Shown here in pieces: positions 39,696 to 55,604 of a stretch of DNA of 64,000 nt. The notes under the pieces were generated by a model that saw nothing but the letters and a program-made list of their open reading frames with translations, made no database searches and was not told the origin of the DNA. Position numbers and translations under genes: made by a program. Numbering within the stretch: position 1 is the first letter of the stretch; every line of letters begins with the position of its first letter. Source of the stretch: an uncultured Acidobacteriota bacterium (lineage in GTDB: Bacteria; Acidobacteriota; Thermoanaerobaculia; UBA5066); contig CAIMWE010000063.1 in assembly GCA_903845115.1 (NCBI GenBank), forward strand, positions 1-64,000, given 5' to 3'.

Positions 39696-40535
39696 ATGAT
39701 CGTCGGAGGCGTCGACATCGGTTCCACCACCGCGAAGGCGGTCGTCCTGAGGGGTGACGAGATCATCCTCGGCACCATCCTTCGAGTCACGACCAAGCCG
39801 GAGCACACGGCGAACCTGGCCATGGAGGAGGCGCTGAAGAAGGCGGGCCTCTCCTCCGTCCAGGAGCTGGACTACGTCGTGGCCACCGGCTACGGCCGGC
39901 AGAAGACCACGTTCGCCAACGAGAACATCTCGGAGATCTCCTGCCACGCCCGCGGCGCCTGGCACGTCTGCCCGTCGGTCCGGACCATCATCGACATCGG
40001 TGGCCAGGACTGCAAGTCGATGTCCGTCACGGAGAAGGGAACCGTCGCCGGCTTCGAGATGAACGACCGTTGCGCCGCCGGTACCGGCCGCTTCTTCGAC
40101 GTCATGGCCAAGGTCCTGACGTGCGGCTACGACGGGATCTCGAGCCTCCAGAACGTCAGCGAGACCCCGGCCCACATCACGAGCCAGTGCAGCGTCTTCG
40201 CCGAGTCGGAAGTGATCTCGCTCGTCAACAACGACGTGCCGCTCGCCGACATCATCACCGGCATCAACCTGTCGGTCGCCGGGCGCGCCGGGGGCCTCCT
40301 GAGACGGGTCGGCGTGAAGTCCGACGTCGTCATGACCGGGGGGTGCTCCAGGAACGCCGGCCTGATCCACGCGCTGGAGAAGGCGCTCGGCGTCCCGATC
40401 CTGATGCTCCCGGTGGACCCGCAGTTCATGGGCGCCGTCGGCGCCGCGGTCTTCGCCCGGGACAAGGCGACCGCGGCGAAGGCCGTGCCGGTCGCGACGC
40501 AACCGGCGAAGGAGGCCAGCCATGGGACTGTCTGA
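39696..40535 (+). CDS. 2-hydroxyacyl-CoA dehydratase activator (archerase, BadF/BadG/HgdC family)
   Basis: 279 residues. An ASKHA-fold ATPase that forms a dimer around one [4Fe-4S] cluster and pumps a low-potential electron into its dehydratase by ATP hydrolysis. Seen: phosphate loop GGVDIGSTTAKAVVL, TGYGRQK, IDIGGQDCK, and the two cluster cysteines in DRCAAGTGRFF and SQCSVFAESEV. The ATG has GGAAAGGAG upstream. It is the only activator for three dehydratase pairs. Its last ten residues (PAKEASHGTV) reappear as a relic at 42366-42398. Confidence 0.95.
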   Translation: MIVGGVDIGSTTAKAVVLRGDEIILGTILRVTTKPEHTANLAMEEALKKAGLSSVQELDYVVATGYGRQKTTFANENISEISCHARGAWHVCPSVRTIIDIGGQDCKSMSVTEKGTVAGFEMNDRCAAGTGRFFDVMAKVLTCGYDGISSLQNVSETPAHITSQCSVFAESEVISLVNNDVPLADIITGINLSVAGRAGGLLRRVGVKSDVVMTGGCSRNAGLIHALEKALGVPILMLPVDPQFMGAVGAAVFARDKATAAKAVPVATQPAKEASHGTV

Positions 40536-40547
40536 ACCTTCGCCAAC
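40503..40547 (+). repeat. Direct repeat copy A: activator end plus dehydratase start
   Basis: Forty of 45 bases match 42366-42410. The repeat spans the ribosome-binding site GAAGGAGG and the codons for MGLSE of the dehydratase gene at 42385. Here those codons lead nowhere except into the LinD-like frame, so this is the head of a lost dehydratase copy. Confidence 0.8.
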
Positions 40548-40572
40548 CCCGGAAAGAGAGGGGCCAGCAATC

Positions 40573-42336
40573 ATGAAGCTCTCCAGAGCCATTCCCTTCG
40601 CAGCCTTCGCCATCGCAGCGGTCCTGGCAGCCGCCCCTGCCTTCTCCGCGGCCGTCCCGCCCTCCTACCCTTCGGCTGACGAGAAGGAGTGGGGGCAGCT
40701 CCAGTGGGTGCTGAAACTGGCGGACCAGGATATTGCCGACTTCAGCAATTTTCAGTCCGTGGACGAGCAGGGCATCAGTGCAAGCCGTTACTCCGTCGCG
40801 TTTGCGGCCTATTTCCTGGCTGCCGAGCAGTACCACAAGTTCCCGGCCTGGCGCGATACGATTCAACCTGCGTTCGATCGCATCAACAAGAAGATGCTCG
40901 AAAAGAAAGTCTGGGGATACTGGGCTCACGAGAGCCTGGGAATCACGAAATTCGAGCCGAAGATGGACCGCCCCTATCCGGAGAATGCGGACCCTGTCTC
41001 CCTGGGAAACATCATGTATTCCGGGCATCTGGGACAGATGATCAATCTCTACCAGATGCTCTACAACGACAGGACCTGGGACGCGCCCGGCTCCATCGTC
41101 TTCAAGCAGTCCGACACCGTCTCGTTCGTTTACAACAACAAGAGCCTTCAGGACGTCATGTTCCTGCAGTTGATCAGCAATCCGGTCCCCGGCATCGAGT
41201 GCGAGCGCAACGCCATCTTTCCCGTTTGCAATCTCCATCCCATGCTCAGCTGGAAGCTGTACGACCAGATGCATGGCACGCGCTATTTCGCCGCCGCCCA
41301 GCCGCTCTTCGACGAGTTCTTCGCCTCGAAGTTCGTCGACCCCAAGACGCACAGCTACGCCATCATCTATCTCATCAAGCAGGGCCTCGTGTTCTCCTCG
41401 TGGAGCCCCCGGTACGGCAACAAGATGGACCCCATGATTCAAGGCCTGGTCGAGAAGGGCGCCAATTTCAACTCGGCGAGCATCGACGGCTGGCTCGGCA
41501 CCTTCATGCACGCCTGGAACCCCAAGCTGATCGAAGAGCTCTGGCCCTATCGAAAAGCCTTCCAGGTGAAGACAAGTCCGGACGGCTCCGTCGATCTCCG
41601 AAAGGACGATTTCGCGCCCGACGCCTACTGGGGGTTCTTCACCATGGGGGTCGCCGAGATGGGTGACGCGCCGTTGCTGAAGGCCCTGCACGCGGCTGCC
41701 GACAAGGAGCTGTCGCCCGTGTGGATCGGCGACACGTATCACTATCCATTCATCGACAAGACCCCGACCATCAATCTGGCGGCGGCCGATTCCGAGACCA
41801 AGCCGGCGCCGGCGGAACAGAAAGCACCCGCACCGAGCTCGGTCATGTCAGCGGATTCCGTCAAGACGGAGCCGGCCAAGGCGGATGCCAAGGGCGGTCT
41901 CTGCTGCGCCGGCCAGTTGCGGACGCCAGAGGATGGCAACGTCTGCAACATGAAGACCTGGCCGCAGCATTCCGATCTCGTGGATCGCCAGATCGCGCTG
42001 TCGCGGGCGCTGCCCAAGAACGGCATGTGGACCATGCACAACAAGCCCTTTGACGCCGAGCACTTTTCCGAGCCTGCGATCACCGGGGTCGACGTCAGGA
42101 AGACGGCCCTGAAACGGGCGATCTACGACCGTTCGAAGTCGGCGCTCATCGTCTCGACGATGCCCGCCAGATCCAAGGCGGCGGCGGGTGGGTTCAAGAT
42201 CGTCAACCTCGATCCGACCAGGAGATACCAGCTGACGGTCGACGGCAAACCGGATGCGGTCTTGAACGGAGTCAAGGAATTCCTGGTGACTCTCGACGGC
42301 ACGAAGGCGCACGACGTGATCCTCGCCCGGAAATGA
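40573..42336 (+). CDS. Secreted linalool dehydratase/isomerase-like protein
   Basis: 587 residues from ATG 40573, which opens a clean signal peptide (MKLSRAIPFAAFAIAAVLAA); the track's start at 40522 is a fused relic. The N-terminal ~400 residues match the LinD (alpha6/alpha6 barrel) family: SGHLGQMINLYQMLYND with its histidine, FVYNNKSLQD, the two active-site-type cysteines in CERNAIFPVCNLHP, and the tyrosine/aspartate region SASRYSVAF. Known LinD is ~370 residues mature; the extra ~180-residue C-terminal domain (GLCCAGQLRTPEDGN onward) is unusual. Likely periplasmic hydro-lyase on an isoprenoid-type alcohol; substrate unknown. Confidence 0.82.
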   Translation: MKLSRAIPFAAFAIAAVLAAAPAFSAAVPPSYPSADEKEWGQLQWVLKLADQDIADFSNFQSVDEQGISASRYSVAFAAYFLAAEQYHKFPAWRDTIQPAFDRINKKMLEKKVWGYWAHESLGITKFEPKMDRPYPENADPVSLGNIMYSGHLGQMINLYQMLYNDRTWDAPGSIVFKQSDTVSFVYNNKSLQDVMFLQLISNPVPGIECERNAIFPVCNLHPMLSWKLYDQMHGTRYFAAAQPLFDEFFASKFVDPKTHSYAIIYLIKQGLVFSSWSPRYGNKMDPMIQGLVEKGANFNSASIDGWLGTFMHAWNPKLIEELWPYRKAFQVKTSPDGSVDLRKDDFAPDAYWGFFTMGVAEMGDAPLLKALHAAADKELSPVWIGDTYHYPFIDKTPTINLAAADSETKPAPAEQKAPAPSSVMSADSVKTEPAKADAKGGLCCAGQLRTPEDGNVCNMKTWPQHSDLVDRQIALSRALPKNGMWTMHNKPFDAEHFSEPAITGVDVRKTALKRAIYDRSKSALIVSTMPARSKAAAGGFKIVNLDPTRRYQLTVDGKPDAVLNGVKEFLVTLDGTKAHDVILARK

Positions 42337-42398
42337 AGGCGACGGACGCGTCGGTCGTGGCCCGGCCGGCGAAGGAGGCAAGCCATGGGACTGTCTGA
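42333..42398 (+). pseudogene. Relic of the activator gene C-terminus
   Basis: ATG 42333 overlaps the LinD-like stop and reads MKATDASVVARPAKEASHGTV then stop. The activator ends with KAT...PVATQPAKEASHGTV, so the last ~20 codons of a second activator copy survive here with the rest deleted. It still carries the ribosome-binding site for the dehydratase gene. Confidence 0.75.
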
Positions 42399-42410
42399 AA
42401 CCTCACCCAC
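42366..42410 (+). repeat. Direct repeat copy B: activator relic plus intact dehydratase start
   Basis: Partner of 40503-40547 (40 of 45 identical). In this copy MGLSE continues into the complete dehydratase subunit, so this end of the duplicated block kept the enzyme and lost the activator. Confidence 0.8.
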
Positions 42411-43536
42411 GTTCCGGGACCTCGCCCGGATCGCCGGAACTCTCCGGAATCCCCGCGTCGACTCCTGGAAGAGCGGCGGCGGGAAGGTGATGGGGTACTA
42501 CTGCTCCTTCATCCCCGAGGAGATCTTCGTCGCCGCCGGCCTCCTCCCCTTCCGGATCCGGGGGACCGGGAGCCAGGGAACGGAGCTGGCCGACCAGTAC
42601 TACACCCAGGTCAGCTGCACCTTCCCCCGCCACTCGTTCGACCAGGCGCTCCGCGGCGAGTTCGACTTCCTCGACGGGCTGGTCGTCGGGACATCGTGCG
42701 ACACGATCCGGCACACCTTCGACAACTGGAAGCACGCCGGCCTGAAGACCCCCTTCACCTACCTGCTCCACCGCCCTCACGTCACCGGCGAGCTGCAGGT
42801 CGACTACTACCGGCGGCAGCTCGAGAAATTGAAATCGGCCGTCGAGGAGCACTTCGCCGCCCGGATCACCGACGAGAAGCTCTGGGAGGCCATCGAGCTC
42901 TGCGACGAGACGCGTCGCCTCCAGCAAGAGCTCTACGCCCTCCGGAAGGTCCCCAACCCCGCGATCACCGGGTCGGAGACCGTCGCGGTGATGGTCGCCG
43001 GCGCCTCGATGCCGAAGACCGACTACAACGCGGCCCTCCGGACGCTTCTCGCCGAGCTCGGGACTGCCCCCGGGGGCGGGAAGGCGGGTGCGGCCCGGCT
43101 GATGATCGCCGGCTGCGCCCACGACGACCCGAGCCTCTGCGCGATCGTCGAGGCCGAGGGAGGAATCGTCGTCACCGACTTCACCTGCTTCGGCGGGAAG
43201 GTGATGCTCGAGTCCATCGGTCCCCGCAGCGGGGATCCCCTTCTCGCGCTGGCCCGGTACGGAGTCCTCGACCGCCCCTTCTGCCCGAAGATCGGCGGAG
43301 CCCACCCGATGAGGAAGCAAGCCGTGCTGGACATGGTTCGCGACTTCAAGGTCGACGGCGTCATCGGCCAGGTCCTCGTCTCGTGCGACCCGTGGGGCGG
43401 CGAGATGTTCCTGCTCAAGGACGAGCTGAAGGAGGCCGGCATCCCGATGCTGAAGTTCGAGACGGACTACCTCCCCAGTTCCGTCGGCCAGCTGACCACG
43501 AGAGTCCAGGCGTTCCTCGAGACGGTCAGGAGGTGA
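42385..43536 (+). CDS. 2-hydroxyacyl-CoA dehydratase-family subunit, B-type (pair 1)
   Basis: 383 residues of the HGD-D/BcrC-like fold that holds a [4Fe-4S] cluster. Conserved cysteines: GYYCSFIPEEIF, VSCTFPRHSFD, GTSCDTIRHTFDN, FTCFGGKV, PFCPKIGG and VSCDPWGGE. It begins with the MGLSE repeat and is followed after 3 bases by its larger partner with a strong AGGAGGTGA site. Together they should form a heterodimer that receives an electron from the activator. Substrate is not evident; benzoyl-CoA reductase, dehydratase and double-cubane reductase are the known family roles. Confidence 0.92.
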   Translation: MGLSETSPTFRDLARIAGTLRNPRVDSWKSGGGKVMGYYCSFIPEEIFVAAGLLPFRIRGTGSQGTELADQYYTQVSCTFPRHSFDQALRGEFDFLDGLVVGTSCDTIRHTFDNWKHAGLKTPFTYLLHRPHVTGELQVDYYRRQLEKLKSAVEEHFAARITDEKLWEAIELCDETRRLQQELYALRKVPNPAITGSETVAVMVAGASMPKTDYNAALRTLLAELGTAPGGGKAGAARLMIAGCAHDDPSLCAIVEAEGGIVVTDFTCFGGKVMLESIGPRSGDPLLALARYGVLDRPFCPKIGGAHPMRKQAVLDMVRDFKVDGVIGQVLVSCDPWGGEMFLLKDELKEAGIPMLKFETDYLPSSVGQLTTRVQAFLETVRR

Positions 43537-43539
43537 ATC

Positions 43540-44808
43540 GTGAGTGACAAGGCCACGCAGATGACCATGACGACCCCTGCCCTCGCGAGCGACGCCGGGG
43601 TCTTCGACCAGCTCAACCGCGAGGCGAACGGGATCCTGGCGGAGCTGTTGCCGCAGAAGCTCCTGGAAGCGCCGAAGGGGGGAAAGCCCTTCGTCATCGG
43701 GAGCGACGAGGTCCTCCCCGAGATCGTCTCGGCGATGGACCTCTACTACAACATCCTGACCGTCACCGGGGCCACCGCCGCCGGGATGCCCGACGGCGCC
43801 CAGACCATCGATAAGGCGATCGAGATGGGGGTCGAGAGCCGGCTCTGCAACGCGGTCCGGTGCGCCATGTACTACCTCTACTCGCCCCTGATGCCGATGC
43901 CCGACGCCATCGTCACGACGAACTCCCCCTGCGACGCCGTCGACACCCTCGGCATCATGATGGACAACTACAAGCCGTGGGCCCACGTCCCGAAGTTCCA
44001 CCTCGACGCGCCGCACGGCCGCGAGGAGGAGGACTTCGTCTACTTCGGCAAACAGCTGAAGGAGATGGTGCTCTTCCTCGAGAAGGCGACCGGCCGGAAG
44101 CTCGACCTGGGCCGCTTCCTGGCCCTCTGCGAGGAGTCCAACCGGCAGGGGGCCCTTCTGGCCGAATTCCAGGAGCTAAAGCGAGCCGTCCCGTGCCCGG
44201 TCGACCCCGACTGGGCGCGCCGCGGGTTCCGTCTCTCCCGGTGGATCCCTCCCGGCCGCCCCGAGGTGACCGACATCCTCCGCCGGCTCGTGGCCGCGAC
44301 CGAGGAGCGGGTGAAGGCGAAGCAGGGGATGGACGGCGTCGACGAGAAGATCCGGTTCCTCTGGTGGGACGTCTCCCCCGTCTGGGCGGGAAAGCTGTTT
44401 CCGCGGCTCGCGACGGAGCTGGGCGCCGTCTGCCTCATGGACTACTACTCCTACGCGGCTCCCTGGACCGTCATCGACACGACGAGCGAGGAGAGCGCCC
44501 TCCGGACATTCGGAAAGCGGTACCTGATCGACACCCCCATGACCCGGCAGGCCATGCACGGCGCCGACTTCTGGATCGAGGACGCGCTCCGGATCGTGAA
44601 GGAGTTCCGCCTCGACGCGGTCGTCATGCCGTGTCACATCGGGCACAAGGACCTGAACGCCTTCCCCAAGATCGCCCGCGACGCGTGCCGCGAGGCCGGT
44701 ATCCCGTTCCTCTTCCTCGGCTGCGACGTCTGGGACGAGCGGTACATGCCCCCCGACAAGGTCTTCGAGACGATGAAGACCTTCTTCCAGTCGGTCGGGC
44801 TCGCCTAG
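43540..44808 (+). CDS. 2-hydroxyacyl-CoA dehydratase-family subunit, C-type (pair 1)
   Basis: 422 residues, GTG start. The larger partner subunit. It keeps the full cysteine set of this paralogue group: SRLCNAVRCAMYYL, NSPCDAVDT, VPCPVDP, GAVCLMDYYSYA, VMPCHIGHKD and LGCDVWDERYM. WKW-type helical motifs such as LCEESNRQGALLAEFQELKR are shared with the other two C-type genes. Of the three it is the most likely to be fully active. Confidence 0.92.
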   Translation: MSDKATQMTMTTPALASDAGVFDQLNREANGILAELLPQKLLEAPKGGKPFVIGSDEVLPEIVSAMDLYYNILTVTGATAAGMPDGAQTIDKAIEMGVESRLCNAVRCAMYYLYSPLMPMPDAIVTTNSPCDAVDTLGIMMDNYKPWAHVPKFHLDAPHGREEEDFVYFGKQLKEMVLFLEKATGRKLDLGRFLALCEESNRQGALLAEFQELKRAVPCPVDPDWARRGFRLSRWIPPGRPEVTDILRRLVAATEERVKAKQGMDGVDEKIRFLWWDVSPVWAGKLFPRLATELGAVCLMDYYSYAAPWTVIDTTSEESALRTFGKRYLIDTPMTRQAMHGADFWIEDALRIVKEFRLDAVVMPCHIGHKDLNAFPKIARDACREAGIPFLFLGCDVWDERYMPPDKVFETMKTFFQSVGLA

Positions 44809-44823
44809 GCGGAGAGCGACCGC

Positions 44824-45651
44824 GTGACCATGAACGTCCTGGACGCCTACCTCGAGAGGGTCTACGCCCTCGTCGAGGAGATGCGCGAGCGGGCGGCCCT
44901 GGTACGCGTCTACCAGGCCCCTGGCATTCCGGGCACCGGGGACCTCCCGGGCGCATCGGACGCCCTTGCTCGCCTGACGGAGGGGCTGCCGATCCGGGTC
45001 GGCCCCGGAGCCTCGCCGGGGCTGATCCTGCGCAGCGACACGTTTCTCGAGCTGGGGAGCCCCGAGGCGGGATCGTGCTCGCTCCTTCTCGCGACCGACA
45101 CGACCCGGCTCGTCCACGACGGCCGGGTCACGCTCGTCGGCCCCGAGGTCGGGGAATCGGCCGGCGGAAGCCTCCCCTTCGGACAGGTCCTGATGCTCCG
45201 CGGAGCCGGCCTCGGGGAGAAGGACCTCGACGAGCTGCAGCGGCTGCTGGTGGTGGCCGGACAGATCGAGGGGTACATGGTCCGGAGCGCGCCGGGAAAC
45301 GTCTGGAGCCGCGTGAGCCAGGAAGCGGCCGCGAAGGGGTTCTCCTTCGCAACGCTCGGCCGCGCGCTGCGAGCTCTCGTCATGTCGGGCTCCCCGGCGG
45401 TCGAGGCGGTCGAGGTGCTCTTCGTCACCTCTGGCAAGGCGGACCTCGTCCCCCTGGAGGCCGCGGCGCAGCAGGTCCGGAAGATCGCCCGCGAGGGGAC
45501 GAGGGAGCGCTGGAAGGTCAAGGGCTACGACATCGACTGCGCAAACGACTGTTCGGCCTGTGGCGACAAGCCCGTCTGCGACGACATCCGGAGCGTCCTG
45601 AAGGAAAGACAGCACATCGACGAGTCACCTGGAGGAACGCATGCCACTTGA
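44824..45651 (+). CDS. Acetyl-CoA synthase beta-like / CO dehydrogenase beta family protein
   Basis: 275 residues, GTG start with GGAGAG upstream. The middle (LPFGQVLMLRGAGLGEKDL, VAGQIEGYMVRSAPGNVWSR) and the C-terminal KVKGYDIDCANDCSACGDKP with CDD next recall the short family annotated as carbon monoxide dehydrogenase beta subunit, related to part of acetyl-CoA synthase. Four cysteines (C-x3-C-x2-C-x5-C) could hold an Fe-S or Ni site. It overlaps the CooC-type ATPase gene by 11 bases. Family call from memory, hence moderate. Confidence 0.48.
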   Translation: MTMNVLDAYLERVYALVEEMRERAALVRVYQAPGIPGTGDLPGASDALARLTEGLPIRVGPGASPGLILRSDTFLELGSPEAGSCSLLLATDTTRLVHDGRVTLVGPEVGESAGGSLPFGQVLMLRGAGLGEKDLDELQRLLVVAGQIEGYMVRSAPGNVWSRVSQEAAAKGFSFATLGRALRALVMSGSPAVEAVEVLFVTSGKADLVPLEAAAQQVRKIAREGTRERWKVKGYDIDCANDCSACGDKPVCDDIRSVLKERQHIDESPGGTHAT

Positions 45652-46426
45652 GAAGCTCGGAAATCACGCTGCCGCACCGAGGCCGGCTCCCCAGGTGATC
45701 GCCGTCTGTGGAAAAGGAGGGGTCGGGAAGACCGCCTTCTCCGCCCTACTCTCACGGGTATTGATCGACTCGGGCGTCTCTCCCCTGCTCCTGGTCGACG
45801 CCGATCCCGTCGGTGGGCTCACGTCGGCCATCGGCGAGCGGGCCGTCGAGACGCTTGCCGGCGTGAGGGACCATTTCATCGCCGAGGCCCGCCGCGGCGG
45901 GAAGTCGGGGGCGGCCGACGCCGCCCAGCTCCTCGAATACTCTCTCCTGAAGGCCCTCGTCGAGCGGAAGGGCTACGCACTCCTGGCGATGGGGCACAAC
46001 GGGGAGAAGGGGTGCTTCTGCCCCGCCAACAAGCTGCTGCGCTCGGCGATCGAGGGACTCGTCCCCTCCTTCGCCGCTGTCGTGATCGACGCCGAGGCCG
46101 GCATCGAGCAGATCAACCGGGACGTCACCGAGCGCGTCACCCGCGTCGTCGCCGTCGTGGACGCCTCGCAGCGGAGCCTCGACACGCTCCGGATGATCGT
46201 CGAGATGGTCGGCCCGTCGCGGGTCGGCGTCGTCGCCAACCGCTTCTCGGCGGCGGAGACCCTTTCGCTGCCCGACGGGGCGACGCTCCTCGGACAGGTC
46301 CCCGAGGACGTCGCCCTCCGCCAGTTCGACCGCGAGGGCTGGCCGCTCTGGCAGCTCCCCGAGGGCAACCCGGCGCTGGAGGCGGTCCGCCACGTGGCGG
46401 CCGTTCTCAGGAAAGACCTCGCATGA
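45641..46426 (+). CDS. CooC-type MinD-like ATPase (metallocentre maturation)
   Basis: 261 residues. Walker A CGKGGVGKTAFSALL, LLLVDADPVGG, Walker B VVIDAEAGIEQINRDV and VVAVVDASQRSLDT match the CooC family that loads nickel into CO dehydrogenase. The metal-binding CxC of CooC appears as GCFCPANKLL near residue 125. It overlaps the ACS-beta-like gene, so the two likely act on one metal protein, possibly a dehydratase-family cluster here. Confidence 0.82.
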   Translation: MPLEKLGNHAAAPRPAPQVIAVCGKGGVGKTAFSALLSRVLIDSGVSPLLLVDADPVGGLTSAIGERAVETLAGVRDHFIAEARRGGKSGAADAAQLLEYSLLKALVERKGYALLAMGHNGEKGCFCPANKLLRSAIEGLVPSFAAVVIDAEAGIEQINRDVTERVTRVVAVVDASQRSLDTLRMIVEMVGPSRVGVVANRFSAAETLSLPDGATLLGQVPEDVALRQFDREGWPLWQLPEGNPALEAVRHVAAVLRKDLA

Positions 46427-46455: not shown

Positions 46456-47631
46456 ATGTCAGACAGCATTCGGCCGGCCGCCCTGAAGGCGCTGCTCACG
46501 GCGGCGGCGTCGCTCCGGAACCCCGAGCTGGACGCCTGGACGAGCGCTGGCGGCCGCGTCATCGGTTACTACTGCCCGTTCATCCCCGAGGAGCTCTTCC
46601 TCGCGGGGGGCTTTCTGCCGTTCCGGATGCGCGGGACAGGAAGCACCGACACCGACCAGGCGGACGCCTTCTTCGACCACCTCAACTGCCCCTTCGTCCG
46701 GCACTCCTTCGACCTCGCCCTCCGGGGCGACTACTCCTTCCTCCAGGGCCTCGTCGTCGGCACCGGCTGCGACCACCTGCGCCGCATCTACGACAACGCC
46801 CTTCACGCGCCCCTAGAGGCCTCTTTCGTCTACCTCCTCGACCATCCCCGCACCATGGGATCGGAGGAGGAGGGCGCCGAGCCGATCGTCCGCTACTACC
46901 GCGAGCAGCTCTCGAAGCTGAAGGAGGCGCTGGAGAACCACTTCGGCGTCGCCGTCACGGTACCGGCGCTCCGCGCCGCCATCTCGCTCTGCAACGAGAC
47001 GAGGCGGCTGCAGAGGAGGCTGTACGACCTTTCGGTGGCCCCGGCGCCGAAGGTCTCAGCGTCGGAGCGGGCCGCGGTCATGATGGCGGGGGCCTCCATG
47101 CCGAAGGAGCGGTACAACGCACTCCTCTCGGAAGCGCTGAAGGAGCTCGAAACGGCTCCAGAAACTCCAGGAAAGGCCCTCGCCCGCCTGATGATCGTCG
47201 GGCCGGCCATCGAGGACCCCGCGTTCTACGAGGTCTTCGAGGAACAGGGAGCGGCGATCGTGGTCGACGACACCTGCTTCGGGGCAAGGACCGTCCAGGC
47301 GCTGGTCGACGAAGAGGCCCCCGACCCCCTGACGGCCCTCGCGAAGTACCAGGTCGTCGACATGCCCTTCTGCCCGAAGATCGGCGGCTCGCACGCCCAC
47401 CGGCTCCGCTTCATCCAGGAGATGGTCGCGAGATACCGGGTCGATGGCGTGATCGCCCAGGGCTACGTCTCGTGCGACGCCTGGGGGTGCTCGTACGCGC
47501 TCCTTCGCGAGGCGATGCAGGAGGCCGGCATCCCCTACCTGAGGGTCGAGCGCGAATACATCCACAGCGAGTCGGGCCAGCTCTCCACGAGGATCCAGGC
47601 ATTTCTCGAGACGACAGGAGGCCGCGGATGA
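46456..47631 (+). CDS. 2-hydroxyacyl-CoA dehydratase-family subunit, B-type (pair 2)
   Basis: 391 residues, paralogue of 42385. Cysteines are conserved: GYYCPFIPEEL, LNCPFVRHSFD, GTGCDHLRRIYDN, DDTCFGART, PFCPKIGG and VSCDAWGCS. An insertion near residue 130 (MGSEEEGAEPIV) is specific to it. It overlaps its C-type partner (ATGA). Expected to form a heterodimer with it. Confidence 0.91.
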   Translation: MSDSIRPAALKALLTAAASLRNPELDAWTSAGGRVIGYYCPFIPEELFLAGGFLPFRMRGTGSTDTDQADAFFDHLNCPFVRHSFDLALRGDYSFLQGLVVGTGCDHLRRIYDNALHAPLEASFVYLLDHPRTMGSEEEGAEPIVRYYREQLSKLKEALENHFGVAVTVPALRAAISLCNETRRLQRRLYDLSVAPAPKVSASERAAVMMAGASMPKERYNALLSEALKELETAPETPGKALARLMIVGPAIEDPAFYEVFEEQGAAIVVDDTCFGARTVQALVDEEAPDPLTALAKYQVVDMPFCPKIGGSHAHRLRFIQEMVARYRVDGVIAQGYVSCDAWGCSYALLREAMQEAGIPYLRVEREYIHSESGQLSTRIQAFLETTGGRG

Positions 47632-48875
47632 CTCTCCCCGCCGCTAGCCAGCCGGCCGACGCCTATGCCCAGCTGAAGTCGGAGTTCGGCTCCATGACGG
47701 CCGCCTCGTTCCAGGGCCGGATGGCCGAGTACGTGGCCTCGGGGACTCCCATCGTCGCTGGGACCGACGACTTCTTTCCCGAGCTCTTCACCGCCATGGA
47801 GGTGCCGTTCTATTTCGTCGTGAGGCAAGGCCTCGAGCTGGCGTTCCACGTCGGCAAGGGGCCCGAGGCCGTGGACGGCTACAACGAGCTGGGAGGCTCC
47901 AGCTCCCTCTGCTCGCTCCAGAAAGCCGCCGCCTACCTCCTGATGAAAGGCCGCCTGCCCAAGCCGTCGGCCATCGTCATGACCTCCACCTCGTGCGACG
48001 GACAGACCGCCGTGAACGAGATGATGGCGAACTACGCCCCCTGGTCCGACGTGCCGAAGATGAGCTTCGACGCCTCCTTCGAGAAGGACGAGGCGAGCAT
48101 GGAGTACCTGGGGAAGCAGTGGATGCGCTTCATCCCGCTCGTCGAGAAGGCCACGGGGCGGAAGTTCGACCTCGACCGCCTCAAGGAGGTCTGCGAGGAG
48201 TCGAACCGGCAGACCCGGCTCCTCTTCGACTTCCAGGAGCTGAGGCGTGCCGTTCCCTCCCCCGTCCGGGCGGAGTGGGGATTCCTGGCGTACATGGCGG
48301 CCAGGTGGTCCGGCTGCGGCCGGCCGCTCGCGACCGCCTGGCTCCAGCGGCTCTTCGACACGACGGAGCGCCGGGTGCGGGACGGGAAAGGGATCGACGG
48401 CGTGGAGGAGAAGATCCGGTACGCCTGGTTCGACATCCTCCCCTGCTGGAGCGACCAGCTCTTCCCGAGGCTCGAGCGGGAGCTCGGTGCCGTGAACCTC
48501 ATGGACCTGTACGGCTACAGCGCCCCCTGGCCGGTCATCGACACCTCGACCCTGGAGACCATCTTCACCTCGTTCGCCAAGAGGTTCCTCATCGGAAACC
48601 CGATGACGCGGCAGATCTTCGCGCTCTCGACGGTCTACGGCGGGGATGCCGTCCACATCGCGAAGAACTTCAAGTGCGATGCCATCCTCATGCCGAGCCA
48701 CGTGGGTCACAAGGACGGCGCGGCGTCGCACCGGGTCGTCCACGACCTGTTCCGGGAGATCGGTGTCCCCTTTCTCGTCGTGGGGTGCGACGTCTTCGAC
48801 GAGCGCTACATGACGTCCGACGTCGTGTTCAACAAGATCGAGGCCTTCTTCGACACCAGCGGACTGCGGCGGTAG
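47628..48875 (+). CDS. 2-hydroxyacyl-CoA dehydratase-family subunit, C-type (pair 2), divergent
   Basis: 415 residues, ATG overlapping the partner stop. The fold is clear (LKEVCEESNRQTRLLFDFQEL, WFDILPCWSDQLFPRLEREL, VGCDVFDERYM). Compared with pair 1 it lacks the cysteine in the VMPCHIGHKD region (here LMPSHVGHKD) and in GAVCLMD (here GAVNLMD), while keeping SSLCSLQKA and STSCDGQTA. It may bind its cluster with other ligands, or have changed function. Confidence 0.9.
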   Translation: MTLPAASQPADAYAQLKSEFGSMTAASFQGRMAEYVASGTPIVAGTDDFFPELFTAMEVPFYFVVRQGLELAFHVGKGPEAVDGYNELGGSSSLCSLQKAAAYLLMKGRLPKPSAIVMTSTSCDGQTAVNEMMANYAPWSDVPKMSFDASFEKDEASMEYLGKQWMRFIPLVEKATGRKFDLDRLKEVCEESNRQTRLLFDFQELRRAVPSPVRAEWGFLAYMAARWSGCGRPLATAWLQRLFDTTERRVRDGKGIDGVEEKIRYAWFDILPCWSDQLFPRLERELGAVNLMDLYGYSAPWPVIDTSTLETIFTSFAKRFLIGNPMTRQIFALSTVYGGDAVHIAKNFKCDAILMPSHVGHKDGAASHRVVHDLFREIGVPFLVVGCDVFDERYMTSDVVFNKIEAFFDTSGLRR

Positions 48876-48913: not shown

Positions 48914-49852
48914 ATGAAAGAGATCTTCGCAAGCCCCCTCTTCCTACAGGCGATCGGCTTCATCGCCCACAGCGGGTTCTTCTGCGTCGTCTTCGCGATC
49001 GCCTCGCGCTGCACGCTGAAGGACCTCCTGGACGAGATAAGGAAGCCCGCGCTCCTCCTGAAAACCTTCGCCGCGACCACGGTCATCGGACCGCTGATCG
49101 CGGCCGGGGTGGTCAAGCTGCTCGACGTCCCGCTCGTCGTCGGCGGCGTCATCCTGCTCGGAGCGGCCACGGCCGGGAGTCCCCTGGCCCCCCTCGGGAC
49201 GAGGGGAAAGAAAGGCAGCCTCCAGCTCGCGTCGACGGTCATGGGGCTCCTCGTCCTGTTGATGCCGGTGACGGTGACGTTCTGGCTGTGGGTCTACAGC
49301 CAGTGGTTCCCGATGCACCTCTCGATCTCGGTCCCGAAGCTCCTGGCGACGGTGGCGCCGCTCACGATCGTCCCCCTCGTCCTCGCGGTGGCGCTCCGGG
49401 AGCTGCTGCCCGCGGTCTCGAAGGTCGCCGGGAAGGCCCTGGACCTCTACTCGAAGGTGTGCATCGTGATCCTGTTCGTCGTCTTCATCGTCCCCGGGCT
49501 CCTGGCCCTGTTCCGTTTCAAGCTCGTGGAGTTCGGGGCCATCGTCATCGTGATGTCGCTCGCGCTCGCCGCGGGCGACTTCCTGGGCGGGCCCGACGCG
49601 AGGGACCGGATCAGCGTCGCCATGGCGGCGACGGAGTGCAACATCACGGCCCTGTTCGTCATCGCCCACGTCTCGTATCCGAAGGTCCACATCCTCGGAA
49701 CGGTGCTCGCCTACATCATCGTGAGCTTCCTGACGGCGGCGGTCTGGTACAGGTTCCTCCTGTACCGGATGAAGGGGCGAGGCGAGACGCTGGAGCCCTC
49801 GGGAACAGGTTCGACGAATCCGACGAAGACAACAAAGGAGGTCAAGCAATGA
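48914..49852 (+). CDS. BASS/ACR3-like membrane transporter
   Basis: 312 residues with about nine or ten hydrophobic helices. The arrangement (FIAHSGFFCVVFAIASRC, ILLGAATAGSPLAPLGTRG, and the DRISVAMAATECNITALFVIA segment) recalls bile-acid:sodium symporter (BASS) and ACR3 carriers. Na+-driven import of an organic anion is inferred. It sits between dehydratase pairs 2 and 3 and overlaps pair 3 (ATGA), so it likely carries a pathway substrate or product. Confidence 0.72.
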   Translation: MKEIFASPLFLQAIGFIAHSGFFCVVFAIASRCTLKDLLDEIRKPALLLKTFAATTVIGPLIAAGVVKLLDVPLVVGGVILLGAATAGSPLAPLGTRGKKGSLQLASTVMGLLVLLMPVTVTFWLWVYSQWFPMHLSISVPKLLATVAPLTIVPLVLAVALRELLPAVSKVAGKALDLYSKVCIVILFVVFIVPGLLALFRFKLVEFGAIVIVMSLALAAGDFLGGPDARDRISVAMAATECNITALFVIAHVSYPKVHILGTVLAYIIVSFLTAAVWYRFLLYRMKGRGETLEPSGTGSTNPTKTTKEVKQ

Positions 49853-51015
49853 AGTCCGGCCTGCAATCGGAGGTCTTCGAAGGGTTCGCCAGCGCGGCCC
49901 GGAGCATCTCCAACCCTGAACTCGAGAAGTGGAAGGGCGGGGGGGGCAAGGTCCTCGGGTACACCTGCTCCTTCGTCCCGGAGGAGCTGATCGTCGCGGC
50001 AGGGCTGATGCCCTTCCGCATCCGCGGGACCGGCAGCCTGACCGCGGAGAGTGCCAACGAGTACTTCGAGGCGGCGAACGTCTGCAGCTTCATCCGGCAC
50101 ACGTTCGACCAGGTCCTCCAGGGAAGGTACGACTTCCTGGACGGCGCCGTGATCGGGGGCGGCTGCGACGCGAACCGGCACATCTACGACAACTGGCAGA
50201 AGAGCCCCGTTAAGCCTCAGTTCCTCGAGACGATCTTCTTCCCGCATGCCAGCGGCGAGCCGATGGCACTCGAATTCCGCGGCCAGCTCGCCGGGCTGAA
50301 GACGAAGATCGAGCAGCACTTCGGGGCGGAGATCACCGACGAGAAGCTCCGGAGCGCAGTCCGCCTCTGCAACGAGACGAGGTCCCTCCAGCGCGATCTC
50401 TACGCTCTCCGGCAGTCGGCGAACCCGCCCATCACCGGCGGCGAGACGGTCGAGGTCATGGTGGCCGGTTCCTCGATGCCCAAGGAGCGGTACAACACGA
50501 TGCTGAGGACGCTGCTCGAGGAGCTGCGAGGCGCGACCGTTCCGGAGCGGAAGATCGGCGCCCGGATCATGATCGTCGGCCCGGGCCACGACGACACCTC
50601 GATGTGCGACATCGTGGAGGAGCTGGGCGGCCTCGTCGCTGCCGACCTGACCTGCTTTGGCGGCAAGGTGATCTTCGGCAGCGTCCAGGAAGAGGGACCC
50701 GACCCGCTCCAGGCCATCGCCGACTACCAGGTCCTCGCCCGTCCCTTCTGCCCGAAGAACCTCGGGGCGCACCCTCACATCCAGAAGGAGCTTCTCGATC
50801 AGGTCCGGGCCCTCCGGGTGGACGGGGTGATCGGCCAGAGCTTCCTCTGCTGCAACATGTGGGGGGGCGAGCTCTACATCCTGCACAAGGAGCTGAAGGA
50901 AGCGGGAATACCGATGCTCCGGCTGGAGCGCGAGTACGTGTCGGGCTCTTCGGGCCAGCTGCAGACGAGGGTCCAGGCGTTCCTCGAGACGATCTCAGGG
51001 GGTGGCTCATGCTGA
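49849..51015 (+). CDS. 2-hydroxyacyl-CoA dehydratase-family subunit, B-type (pair 3)
   Basis: 388 residues with AAAGGAGGTC before the ATG. Cysteines conserved: GYTCSFVPEEL, NVCSFIRHTFD, GGGCDANRHIYDN, LTCFGGKV, PFCPKNLG and LCCNMWGGE. It is closer to pair 1 than to pair 2 by eye. The stop lies inside the start region of its C-type partner. Confidence 0.91.
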   Translation: MKSGLQSEVFEGFASAARSISNPELEKWKGGGGKVLGYTCSFVPEELIVAAGLMPFRIRGTGSLTAESANEYFEAANVCSFIRHTFDQVLQGRYDFLDGAVIGGGCDANRHIYDNWQKSPVKPQFLETIFFPHASGEPMALEFRGQLAGLKTKIEQHFGAEITDEKLRSAVRLCNETRSLQRDLYALRQSANPPITGGETVEVMVAGSSMPKERYNTMLRTLLEELRGATVPERKIGARIMIVGPGHDDTSMCDIVEELGGLVAADLTCFGGKVIFGSVQEEGPDPLQAIADYQVLARPFCPKNLGAHPHIQKELLDQVRALRVDGVIGQSFLCCNMWGGELYILHKELKEAGIPMLRLEREYVSGSSGQLQTRVQAFLETISGGGSC

Positions 51016-52226
51016 ATGCGTTTTCCCAGCTGATGGCCCAGTCGGGCAAGGGGCTCTTCGAGCTGACCGTCAATCCGCAGAACGAATCCACGACGCCGGT
51101 GATCCTCTGCAACGGCGACTTCATGGCCGAGATCCCGGTGGCCCTGGGGTGCGAGTTCTCCGACCTGACCCTGACGGGTGCGATGGGAACAGCCCTCCCG
51201 GAAGGGGCCGACCTGATCGACGGAGGGATCGAGCTCGGCGTCGAGAGCCGGATGTGCAACGCCATCAAGAGCGCCTGCTACTACCTCGAGAGCGGAAAGA
51301 TCCGGACGCCGGAGATGATCATCACGACCAACGCCTGCTGCGACAGCATGGACACGCTCGCCAACCTGATGAACGCCTACGAACCCTGGGCGCACGTCCC
51401 TAGATTCATCATGGACGCGCCGCACACGCTCGACGAGGAGAGCTATGCCTACTTCGGGAGACAGCTTCGCGAGGCCGTCACCTTCTTCGAGGGGGTCCTC
51501 GGCCGGAAGATGGACTGGGACCGCCTCCGCGAGGTCTGCGTCGAGTCGAACAAGCAGAGCCAGCTGCTCCTCGAGTTCCAGGAGCTGAAGAAGGCGGTCC
51601 CCTGCCCCGCCGAGCCGGACCTCGCGCGGCAGGGGACGGAGCTGTCGCGCTGGATCAAGCATCGGGTCTCGCCGGAGGTCACGCGGTGGCTCGAGGAGGT
51701 GGTTCGCCTCACCGAGCAGCGCGTCAAGGAGGGGAAGGGGATTGACGGCGTCGACGAGAAGGTCCGCTTCCTCTGGCAGGACCTGGCCGGCAGCTGGTCG
51801 ACCGGGACGGTCCTGGCGCGGCTCCAGAAGGAGCTGGGCGCGGTCTGCGTCATGGACTACGTGTCGTACGCCACCTGGACGCCGATCGACCTCGCAAGCG
51901 AGGAGAAGATGTTCGCGTCGTTCGCCAAGCGGTTCCTCCTGGAGGCCGCCATGACCCGGCAGGCGCTCCACTCCACGGACCTCTTCATCGGCGACATCCT
52001 CCGGATCGTCAAGGAGTTCCGGTGCGATGCCGTGATCATGCCCGCCCACGTCGGACATCGCGACACGAACTCCCGCCTGAAACTCGTCCGCGACGTCTGC
52101 CGCGAGAACGGCATCCCCTGCCTCGTCCTGGGGATCGACATCTGGGACAAGCGGTTCATCTCCCCCGACGTGGTCTTCGACCGGATGAGCACCTTCTTCC
52201 AGCAGACGGGTCTCATCGCGAGCTGA
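51009..52226 (+). CDS. 2-hydroxyacyl-CoA dehydratase-family subunit, C-type (pair 3), divergent
   Basis: 405 residues from the ATG overlapping the partner stop by 7 bases. It keeps SRMCNAIKSACYYLE, NACCDSMDT, VPCPAEPD and GAVCVMDYVSYA, but the VMPCHIGHKD cysteine is alanine (IMPAHVGHRD) and the LGCDVWDERY cysteine is isoleucine (LGIDIWDKRF). It therefore lost a different set from pair 2. The outer-membrane protein gene follows after 2 bases. Confidence 0.9.
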   Translation: MLNAFSQLMAQSGKGLFELTVNPQNESTTPVILCNGDFMAEIPVALGCEFSDLTLTGAMGTALPEGADLIDGGIELGVESRMCNAIKSACYYLESGKIRTPEMIITTNACCDSMDTLANLMNAYEPWAHVPRFIMDAPHTLDEESYAYFGRQLREAVTFFEGVLGRKMDWDRLREVCVESNKQSQLLLEFQELKKAVPCPAEPDLARQGTELSRWIKHRVSPEVTRWLEEVVRLTEQRVKEGKGIDGVDEKVRFLWQDLAGSWSTGTVLARLQKELGAVCVMDYVSYATWTPIDLASEEKMFASFAKRFLLEAAMTRQALHSTDLFIGDILRIVKEFRCDAVIMPAHVGHRDTNSRLKLVRDVCRENGIPCLVLGIDIWDKRFISPDVVFDRMSTFFQQTGLIAS

Positions 52227-54586: not shown

Positions 54587-54629
54587 GCACGAACCGGCAT
54601 TCCGGACTCGGCTCGAGAGAGAGGAAGTG

Positions 54630-55604
54630 ATGGGCAAGAGACAAGGCCACGGCAACCGATCCCGGGGTGTCGGTCCCCTCCTCGCCGCTCTCGCTGTTCT
54701 CACCGCTCTCTCGGCCGATACGGGGGCAGCGTGGCCCGGAGCGAATCCGGGTCCGCCGCCGCCTCCTCCCCTGCCGGCGGCCGGCGCCCTCCGGACGGTC
54801 GACCTCGGCGGCGGAGAGACGATGACTTTCGTCTGGTGCCCGCCGGGGTCGTTCCAGATGGGGAGCTCGGCCGCCCAGCAGGACGCGGCGACCCGCTTCC
54901 TCCCGGCGGACATCACACCCGCCTCGCGTCGGAAGACCGAGGCGGCGATCCGGGCGGAAGGGCCGTGGCACCTCGTGAAGCTGACCCGCGGCTTCTGGAT
55001 GGCGAGGACCGAGGTGACCCGGGCCCAGTGGATTCGCGTCATGGGAAGCGACCCGAGCCACTTCAGGGATTCAGGTCCAGGCGCCCCCGTCGAGAGCGTC
55101 AGCTGGGATGACTGCCAGGAGTTCGTGAAACGGCTGAACGCCGCCGCCGCGGGTGGAAAGGGGCGTCTCTTCCGGATGCCGACGGAGGCAGAGTGGGAGT
55201 ACGCGGCCCGGGCGGGTTCGGAGAGCGCCTACTGCTTCGGCGACGACGCCGGCGCACTCGGCGACTACGCGTGGTTCGGGGCGAACAGCGGCATGAAGAC
55301 TCACCCCGTCGGGTCGAAGAAGCCGAACGCCTGGGGCCTCTACGACATGCACGGGAACGTCTGGGAGTGGTGCGCCGACGGATATGGTCCCTATCCGTCC
55401 GCCTCCGAGGTGGACCCCCTCCGTGCCGACTCCGGCGCGGGCCGCCTCGGCCGCGGCGGCGGGTGGGACGACTTCGCCGGGGATTGCCGGACGGCCTACC
55501 GGAGCTACGGGAGGCCACCCGGCTTCAAGGCGAGCCCGCTCGGATTCCGGCCCATCATGGTGGAAGAGCAACTGAGCACAGAGAAAGTGAAGAAGATGAG
55601 ATGA
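54630..55604 (+). CDS. Secreted SUMF1/FGE-sulfatase-domain protein
   Basis: 324 residues; ATG 54630 preferred to the GTG three bases before. After a signal peptide and a Pro-rich stretch comes the SUMF1 fold: PPGSFQMGSS, TRGFWMARTEVTRAQWIRVM, PVESVSWDDCQEFVKRLN, RMPTEAEWEYAARAG, YDMHGNVWEWCADGYG and RGGGWDDFAGDCRTAYR, ending GFRPI. Only one of the two copper-site cysteines of true formylglycine-generating enzymes is seen in the last motif, so catalysis is doubtful. It sits between secreted paralogues 1 and 2. Confidence 0.85.
   Translation: MGKRQGHGNRSRGVGPLLAALAVLTALSADTGAAWPGANPGPPPPPPLPAAGALRTVDLGGGETMTFVWCPPGSFQMGSSAAQQDAATRFLPADITPASRRKTEAAIRAEGPWHLVKLTRGFWMARTEVTRAQWIRVMGSDPSHFRDSGPGAPVESVSWDDCQEFVKRLNAAAAGGKGRLFRMPTEAEWEYAARAGSESAYCFGDDAGALGDYAWFGANSGMKTHPVGSKKPNAWGLYDMHGNVWEWCADGYGPYPSASEVDPLRADSGAGRLGRGGGWDDFAGDCRTAYRSYGRPPGFKASPLGFRPIMVEEQLSTEKVKKMR

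Follow-up and report, generated by a model that had tools for sequence, protein, structure and literature searches.

The window, a stretch of 64,000 nucleotides from an uncultured Acidobacteriota bacterium, carries a gene cluster in which a relative of acetyl-CoA synthase (ACSb) and a CooC-type ATPase stand among HgdB/HgdC-type genes. Domain calls were made gene by gene from Pfam, NCBIfam and PDB searches and gave the following features.

39696..40535, + strand: BadF/HgdC-type ATP-dependent activator (acyl-CoA dehydratase activase); TIGR00241 238 bits, MbdQ 9gai_D E 1.2e-64
40522..42336, + strand: linalool dehydratase/isomerase-like protein; PF18566 228 bits, neighbour in locus L002 72% identical
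42385..43536, + strand: HgdB1, BzdN-like, with six double-cubane-type Cys; BzdN 8s02_B E 5.7e-51, Cys pattern
43540..44808, + strand: HgdC1, BzdO-like active-site subunit with His369 in place of the third cluster Cys; BzdO 8s02_A E 2e-10
44629..44652, + strand: P-C-H-I-G-H-K-D motif of HgdC1 (His-type third ligand)
44824..45651, + strand: ACSb, ACS-domain-2 protein, 275 aa; PF03598 51.4 bits, ACS in the PDB by sequence and fold, clade support 100/100
44989..45432, + strand: CdhC (ACS domain 2) homology region of ACSb, residues 56-203
45538..45579, + strand: Cys tail of ACSb, C239-x3-C243-x2-C246-x5-C252
45641..46426, + strand: CooC-type P-loop ATPase, 261 aa; CooC1 3kje_A E 2.5e-12, CbiA PF01656, motif kept in the cluster relatives
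45710..45733, + strand: deviant Walker A GKGGVGKT of CooC, residues 24-31
46010..46021, + strand: GCFC, C-x-C motif of CooC, residues 124-127, aligned to the CxC of CooC1
46456..47631, + strand: HgdB2 (BzdN-like); PF06050 272 bits
47628..48875, + strand: HgdC2, His-type, motif at 48693-48716; PF06050
48914..49852, + strand: BASS-like permease; TIGR00841 32 bits, weak for a cut-off of 326, a relative adjoins CooC in L002
49849..51015, + strand: HgdB3 (BzdN-like); PF06050 262.5 bits from 49882, start set by eye from the ORF translation
51009..52226, + strand: HgdC3, His-type, motif at 52041-52064; PF06050 138.5 bits, start set by eye

The genes of the module region are all on the + strand with almost no intergenic gaps, in the order activator, linalool dehydratase/isomerase-like protein, HgdB1/HgdC1, ACSb, CooC, HgdB2/HgdC2, permease and HgdB3/HgdC3. 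A previous reading of the DNA, made from the sequence only, had placed ACSb and CooC between dehydratase pairs, and PF06050 pairs of the HgdB/HgdC type were indeed found on both sides (42385-44808 and 46456-48875); one more pair lies at about 49849-52226. The overlap of the ACSb and CooC reading frames seen in that reading was recovered with the same limits and amounts to 11 nt. The alignment with the L002 relative begins at the ATG at 44830, so that this may be the ACSb start (273 aa) rather than the GTG at 44824.

The linalool dehydratase/isomerase-like protein, of about 600 aa with a C-terminal extension, sits between BadF and HgdB1 and has a counterpart in L002 (13307-15091), an Elusimicrobia locus with the same ACSb-CooC module. 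Directly upstream of the activator lies a carotenoid-biosynthesis-family membrane protein (PF04240, 38377-39297). An outer-membrane protein of the phenol-degradation MetA family (PF13557, 37519-38355) is encoded upstream of the cluster and a formylglycine-generating-enzyme-like protein (PF03781, 144 bits, 54627-55604) downstream of it.

ACSb and the CooC-type ATPase

The description of the gene at 44824 as encoding a short ACS/CODH-beta-like protein was upheld by the ORF coordinates, by Pfam, by solved ACS chains and by a fold match. In an HMM search of the 275-residue protein against ACS beta families, CdhC (PF03598) was matched with 51.4 bits for a cut-off of 24. Among solved structures, the sequence matched ACS (9c0s_E, E 1.4e-13), and the profile of 53 ACSb relatives matched the ACS chain 8cjc_B with an E-value of 3.2e-23. 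The AlphaFold2 model of ACSb (pLDDT 89, pTM 0.83) was compared with the PDB, and all 23 matches at E <= 0.001 were ACS chains, the best with an rmsd of 1.8 A over 177 columns. The profile alignment reaches as far as the first A-cluster cysteines, at ACS residue 517/518, with which the last Cys of the tail aligns. The A-cluster domain PF19436, which contains the Ni-binding Cys-Gly-Cys, was searched in ACSb and gave no match; the protein ends 23 residues past the Cys tail. What ACSb retains of ACS is the core together with the beginning of the A-cluster loop; it has no Ni site.

The tail agrees exactly with the C-x3-C-x2-C-x5-C spacing that had been read from the sequence (C239/C243/C246/C252). 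In the 53 ACSb sequences, E76, G78, P80, G106, G150, W161, R163, G179, F200, T202, C243, C246 and C252 are invariant, so that C-x2-C-x5-C is common to all; C239 is present in the 12 sequences of A1 and is missing from part of the Desulfobacterota subfamily. In the domain-2 tree, ACSb forms a monophyletic clade apart from true ACS (support 100/100), and it is an old separate clade with intact motifs.

The assignment of the next gene to a CooC-type ATPase with a GCFCPAN motif was also correct: its best solved relative is CooC1, GKGGVGKT is present, and GC[FY]CxxN was found in all CooCs of the cluster relatives that were complete enough to be tested. In the CooC1 of Carboxydothermus, Ni is bound by Cys112/Cys114, and CooC helps to insert Ni (PMC6006190). 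In the window operon, no linkage of CooC to cooS or to another Ni-CODH gene is seen. In the CooC tree, the window-type CooC falls outside the branch of three CODH-linked CooCs from related genomes, a comparison that covers three because no more than that number of the nine CODH/ACS regions retrieved had a CooC nearby. A recent borrowing of CooC from a CODH system was considered and is unsupported, these three CODH-linked CooCs grouping apart.

The HgdB/HgdC partners and their linkage to ACSb

HgdB is closest to BzdN, and HgdC is a distant relative of BzdO. The six cysteines C40, C78, C105, C268, C300 and C334 of HgdB are present in 37 of 37 sequences and match the six double-cubane ligands of BzdN, Cys36/73/100/263/293/327 (PMC11971306). 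In BzdO, the active-site [4Fe-4S] cluster is held by Cys95, Cys128 and Cys380 (PMC11971306). Two of these three cysteines are in place in HgdC1, and His369 falls on Cys380 when counted along the pairwise alignment; by this correspondence we infer that His369 binds the active-site cluster. The partners are, on sequence comparison, closer to the class I benzoyl-CoA reductase BzdN/BzdO than to the simple 2-hydroxyacyl-CoA dehydratases, with equivalog scores to bzdN/bzdO or bcrB/C (172 and 48 bits) that remain below the cut-offs of about 454 and 449.

The motif P-x-H-x-[GA]-H-[KR]-D is found in all three HgdC proteins of the window and in most subfamily-1 loci. Cys is found instead of His in the HgdC of L069, L070 and L071, which are CooC-linked, and of subfamilies 2 and 3. 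The His ligand as a hallmark of the whole module is therefore ruled out: as two ACSb subfamilies go with a canonical-Cys HgdC, the His change is not the general purpose of the module. Orphan His-type HgdC genes, with no HgdB alongside, were seen in L115 (7680-8978) and L122 (7833-9191).

The linkage of the ACS-like and CooC genes with dehydratase-family pairs was found to be conserved across phyla. Thirteen ACSb relatives were obtained when GTDB genome contigs were scanned, and many more came from larger searches. ACSb stands beside HgdB/HgdC in 36 of 39 related loci from Elusimicrobia, Dehalococcoidia, Desulfobacteraceae, Myxococcales and Eubacteriaceae, the other three ending at a contig edge, and in 18 of the 20 loci of a Desulfobacterota set. 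In our first set, HgdB/HgdC, and usually BadF too, were beside ACSb in all the loci with enough upstream sequence. In ACSb subfamily 1, CooC follows ACSb; in subfamily 2 (L072-L080) there is no adjoining CooC, and an SCP2-like protein of about 150 aa lies between BadF and ACSb in 9/9 loci. A recurrent Desulfobacterota cassette has the order HgdB-HgdC-BadF-BadF-ACSb-CooC-HgdB-HgdC-BadF and lies near GntR-type regulators. Genes for acyl-CoA dehydrogenase, enoyl-CoA hydratase and thiolase are also carried by module loci. Within the window's phylum, ACSb was found in one genome out of 297, and no relative was found in any plasmid record.

A conserved-looking protein of about 490 aa without a Pfam family precedes the Desulfobacterota cassette in L163 (2504-3976) and L166 (3100-4566) and may be another part of it. 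Next to a His-type HgdBC-BadF set, genome G298 (L129, 5960-6265) has a third ACSb copy, which is broken (100 residues, containing a stop).

The His motif was also searched as a DNA pattern in 393 genomes of the Dehalococcoidia class, which holds locus L007. His-type HgdC was found in 23 genomes, and ACSb is present in 21 of these as against 5 of the other 370 (Fisher p 5e-28, a value that ignores shared ancestry and genome completeness and includes operon copies, which are linked by definition). Sixteen genomes have His-type copies away from the ACSb operon and 14 of them have ACSb (p 6e-17, likewise ignoring ancestry and completeness). ACSb was not detected in two of the 23 His-type genomes, G486 and G507, and no HgdC was found at the pattern matches in G104, G780 and G747:C541. 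G840 has its ACSb-CooC by itself, midway along a 72-kb contig, and four His-type HgdB/HgdC pairs spread over three further contigs. In the window's phylum, module and His motif come together in the host genome only, G104, the other pattern match, encoding no HgdC. In the window itself, one ACSb-CooC pair and one BadF gene stand alongside three HgdB/HgdC pairs, all of the His type.

Possible roles of the ACSb-CooC pair

The sequence-only reading had proposed ACSb and CooC as a dedicated pair for the dehydratase-family proteins. Cross-phylum linkage, co-occurrence with the variant subunit and the absence of CODH/ACS speak for this part of the proposal; the identity of the partners has to be amended, these being nearer to BzdN/BzdO. 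We favour, tentatively, a role of ACSb and CooC as an accessory module for ATP-dependent enzymes of the class I benzoyl-CoA reductase (BCR)/2-hydroxyacyl-CoA dehydratase superfamily, shared in trans for maturation or activation. Since CooC proteins load Ni, ACSb has an ACS core with a Cys tail and one ACSb-CooC pair is found for several HgdBC pairs, this is the simplest reading. CooC would spend ATP and, through its C-x-C site, charge the Cys tail of ACSb with a metal (Ni by analogy, or else a cluster). The charged ACSb would then act in trans as a carrier or scaffold by which the active-site cluster is matured, or kept active, in one HgdB/HgdC pair or several, with low-potential electrons coming from BadF through its usual ATP-dependent action. 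In the window, a single ACSb-CooC and a single BadF would serve the three pairs with the Cys-to-His change. That the His-type HgdB/HgdC hold a heterometal (e.g. Ni) or an altered cluster bound by two Cys and one His and built by ACSb-CooC, which would make them benzoyl-CoA-reductase-like enzymes whose metal maturation derives from acetyl-CoA synthase, is a further step, which we hold to be unlikely. L069, L070 and L071, which are CooC-linked yet Cys-type, subfamily 2, with no adjoining CooC, the canonical Cys of two subfamilies, and G486 and G507, His-type genomes in which no ACSb was detected, count against the module reading. The neighbouring acyl-CoA dehydrogenase, enoyl-CoA hydratase and thiolase genes suggest CoA thioesters as substrates; the linalool dehydratase-like and carotenoid-synthesis-family membrane proteins hint at an isoprenoid substrate in the window, which is only a lead.

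No CO dehydrogenase is encoded in the window, as had been noticed from the sequence, and PF03063 was not found anywhere in the assembly. A full CODH/ACS operon elsewhere, which could have been the true user of the two proteins, was also looked for, and neither PF03063 (CODH) nor PF19436 nor a second CdhC was present in the host assembly, which is 96% complete. True ACS is found in 10 of the 13 other genomes carrying the module, and this would fit ACSb-CooC being leftovers of a CODH/ACS operon or serving an undetected one. Against this, the linkage is to HgdBC and not to cooS, and one module genome outside the host, Myxococcales G305, is without both PF03063 and PF19436; G297 (Elusimicrobia) and G303 (Dehalococcoidia), which like G305 have no A-cluster domain, each have a CODH match. 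The remaining module genomes have ACS, so that its absence is not the rule, and these data show only that the ACSb-CooC module does not need ACS. A relic is rejected as hardly credible because CODH, A-cluster domain and other CdhC are lacking in the host and because ACSb is an old separate clade with its motifs intact.

The main rival to maturation is a shared electron carrier, and gene clustering alone would fit such a redox subunit too. In this case CooC would mature the tail cluster, and ACSb itself would be the working redox or catalytic subunit, relaying electrons (for example from ferredoxin via ACSb to BadF or HgdBC) or joining the reaction as a common component. The three to four conserved Cys are compatible with an Fe-S cluster, no variation is seen in the ACS core, W161/R163 included, a shared carrier would also occur in trans, as BadF does, and in ACS systems the ATPase (AcsF) acts on ACS itself. 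However, invariance extends to only three of the Cys, ACSb has no Ni-site domain, the ACSb-CooC of G840 is unlinked from every HgdBC pair, and a CooC-type loader is unusual for a plain electron carrier; we regard this role as possible, if rather unlikely. ACSb could also be a docking protein for CoA or acyl-CoA that has retained the CoA-side role presumed for domain 2 of ACS, CooC merely supplying it with a structural cluster. The W-x-R motif (W161, R163), invariant and aligned with ACS, and the CoA-thioester enzymes of the loci agree with docking, but Trp418 of ACS (our numbering of 3git), which we take to be the CoA-site Trp, aligns with Met152 of ACSb and not with a Trp. BzdO moreover has its own CoA-binding channel (PMC11971306), and docking seems quite improbable.

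A literature search joining CooC with benzoyl-CoA reductase, HgdB, CdhC or linalool dehydratase, with subscription journals mostly outside its coverage, found nothing relevant. The recurrence of the pairing in very distant bacteria suggests a hitherto undescribed accessory system, derived from ACS/CooC, for iron-sulfur enzymes of the BCR/HAD superfamily. The lowest potentials known in biology are attained by class I benzoyl-CoA reductases and related enzymes, and we know of no established maturation route for their unusual clusters. A conserved module from CODH/ACS nickel biochemistry, tied to BCR-like enzymes and to a ligand swap, makes cluster maturation testable by heterologous expression and would give CooC and ACS domains a known use outside CO metabolism. 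Should the ligand swap reflect a heterometal centre, this would be a new active-site type.

Comparison with known systems

ACSb shares with ACS/CdhC (the PF03598 + PF19436 system) the domain-2 fold and the core E76-L-G-x-P, G106, W161 and R163, and its cysteines correspond in the alignment to the beginning of the A-cluster [4Fe-4S] loop. It differs in having neither PF19436 nor the Ni-site region, in a shorter Cys spacing, in its separate clade and in its linkage to HgdBC instead of CODH. The window CooC resembles the Ni-insertion ATPases CooC/AcsF by its deviant Walker A and C-x-C motifs, CooC1 being the nearest solved protein, whereas its operon has no cooS and it lies off the branch of the three CODH-linked CooCs.

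A parallel in logic only is given by the isr operon of Acetobacterium wieringae (isoprene reductase with HypA/HypB), whose proteins are unrelated to ACSb/CooC: metal-helper genes, here nickel-chaperone genes, adjoin an iron-sulfur reductase rather than the hydrogenase that they normally serve (PMC10134865). The window cluster has in common with class I BCR BzdNO, 2-hydroxyacyl-CoA dehydratase and the double-cubane cluster protein the six HgdB cysteines and a BadF activator. The known Bzd/Mbd/Had sets do not, to our knowledge, include ACSb or CooC. With BzdNO in particular, the window HgdC shares two of the three active-site cysteines, whereas the third ligand position is occupied by a His in the window's subfamily.
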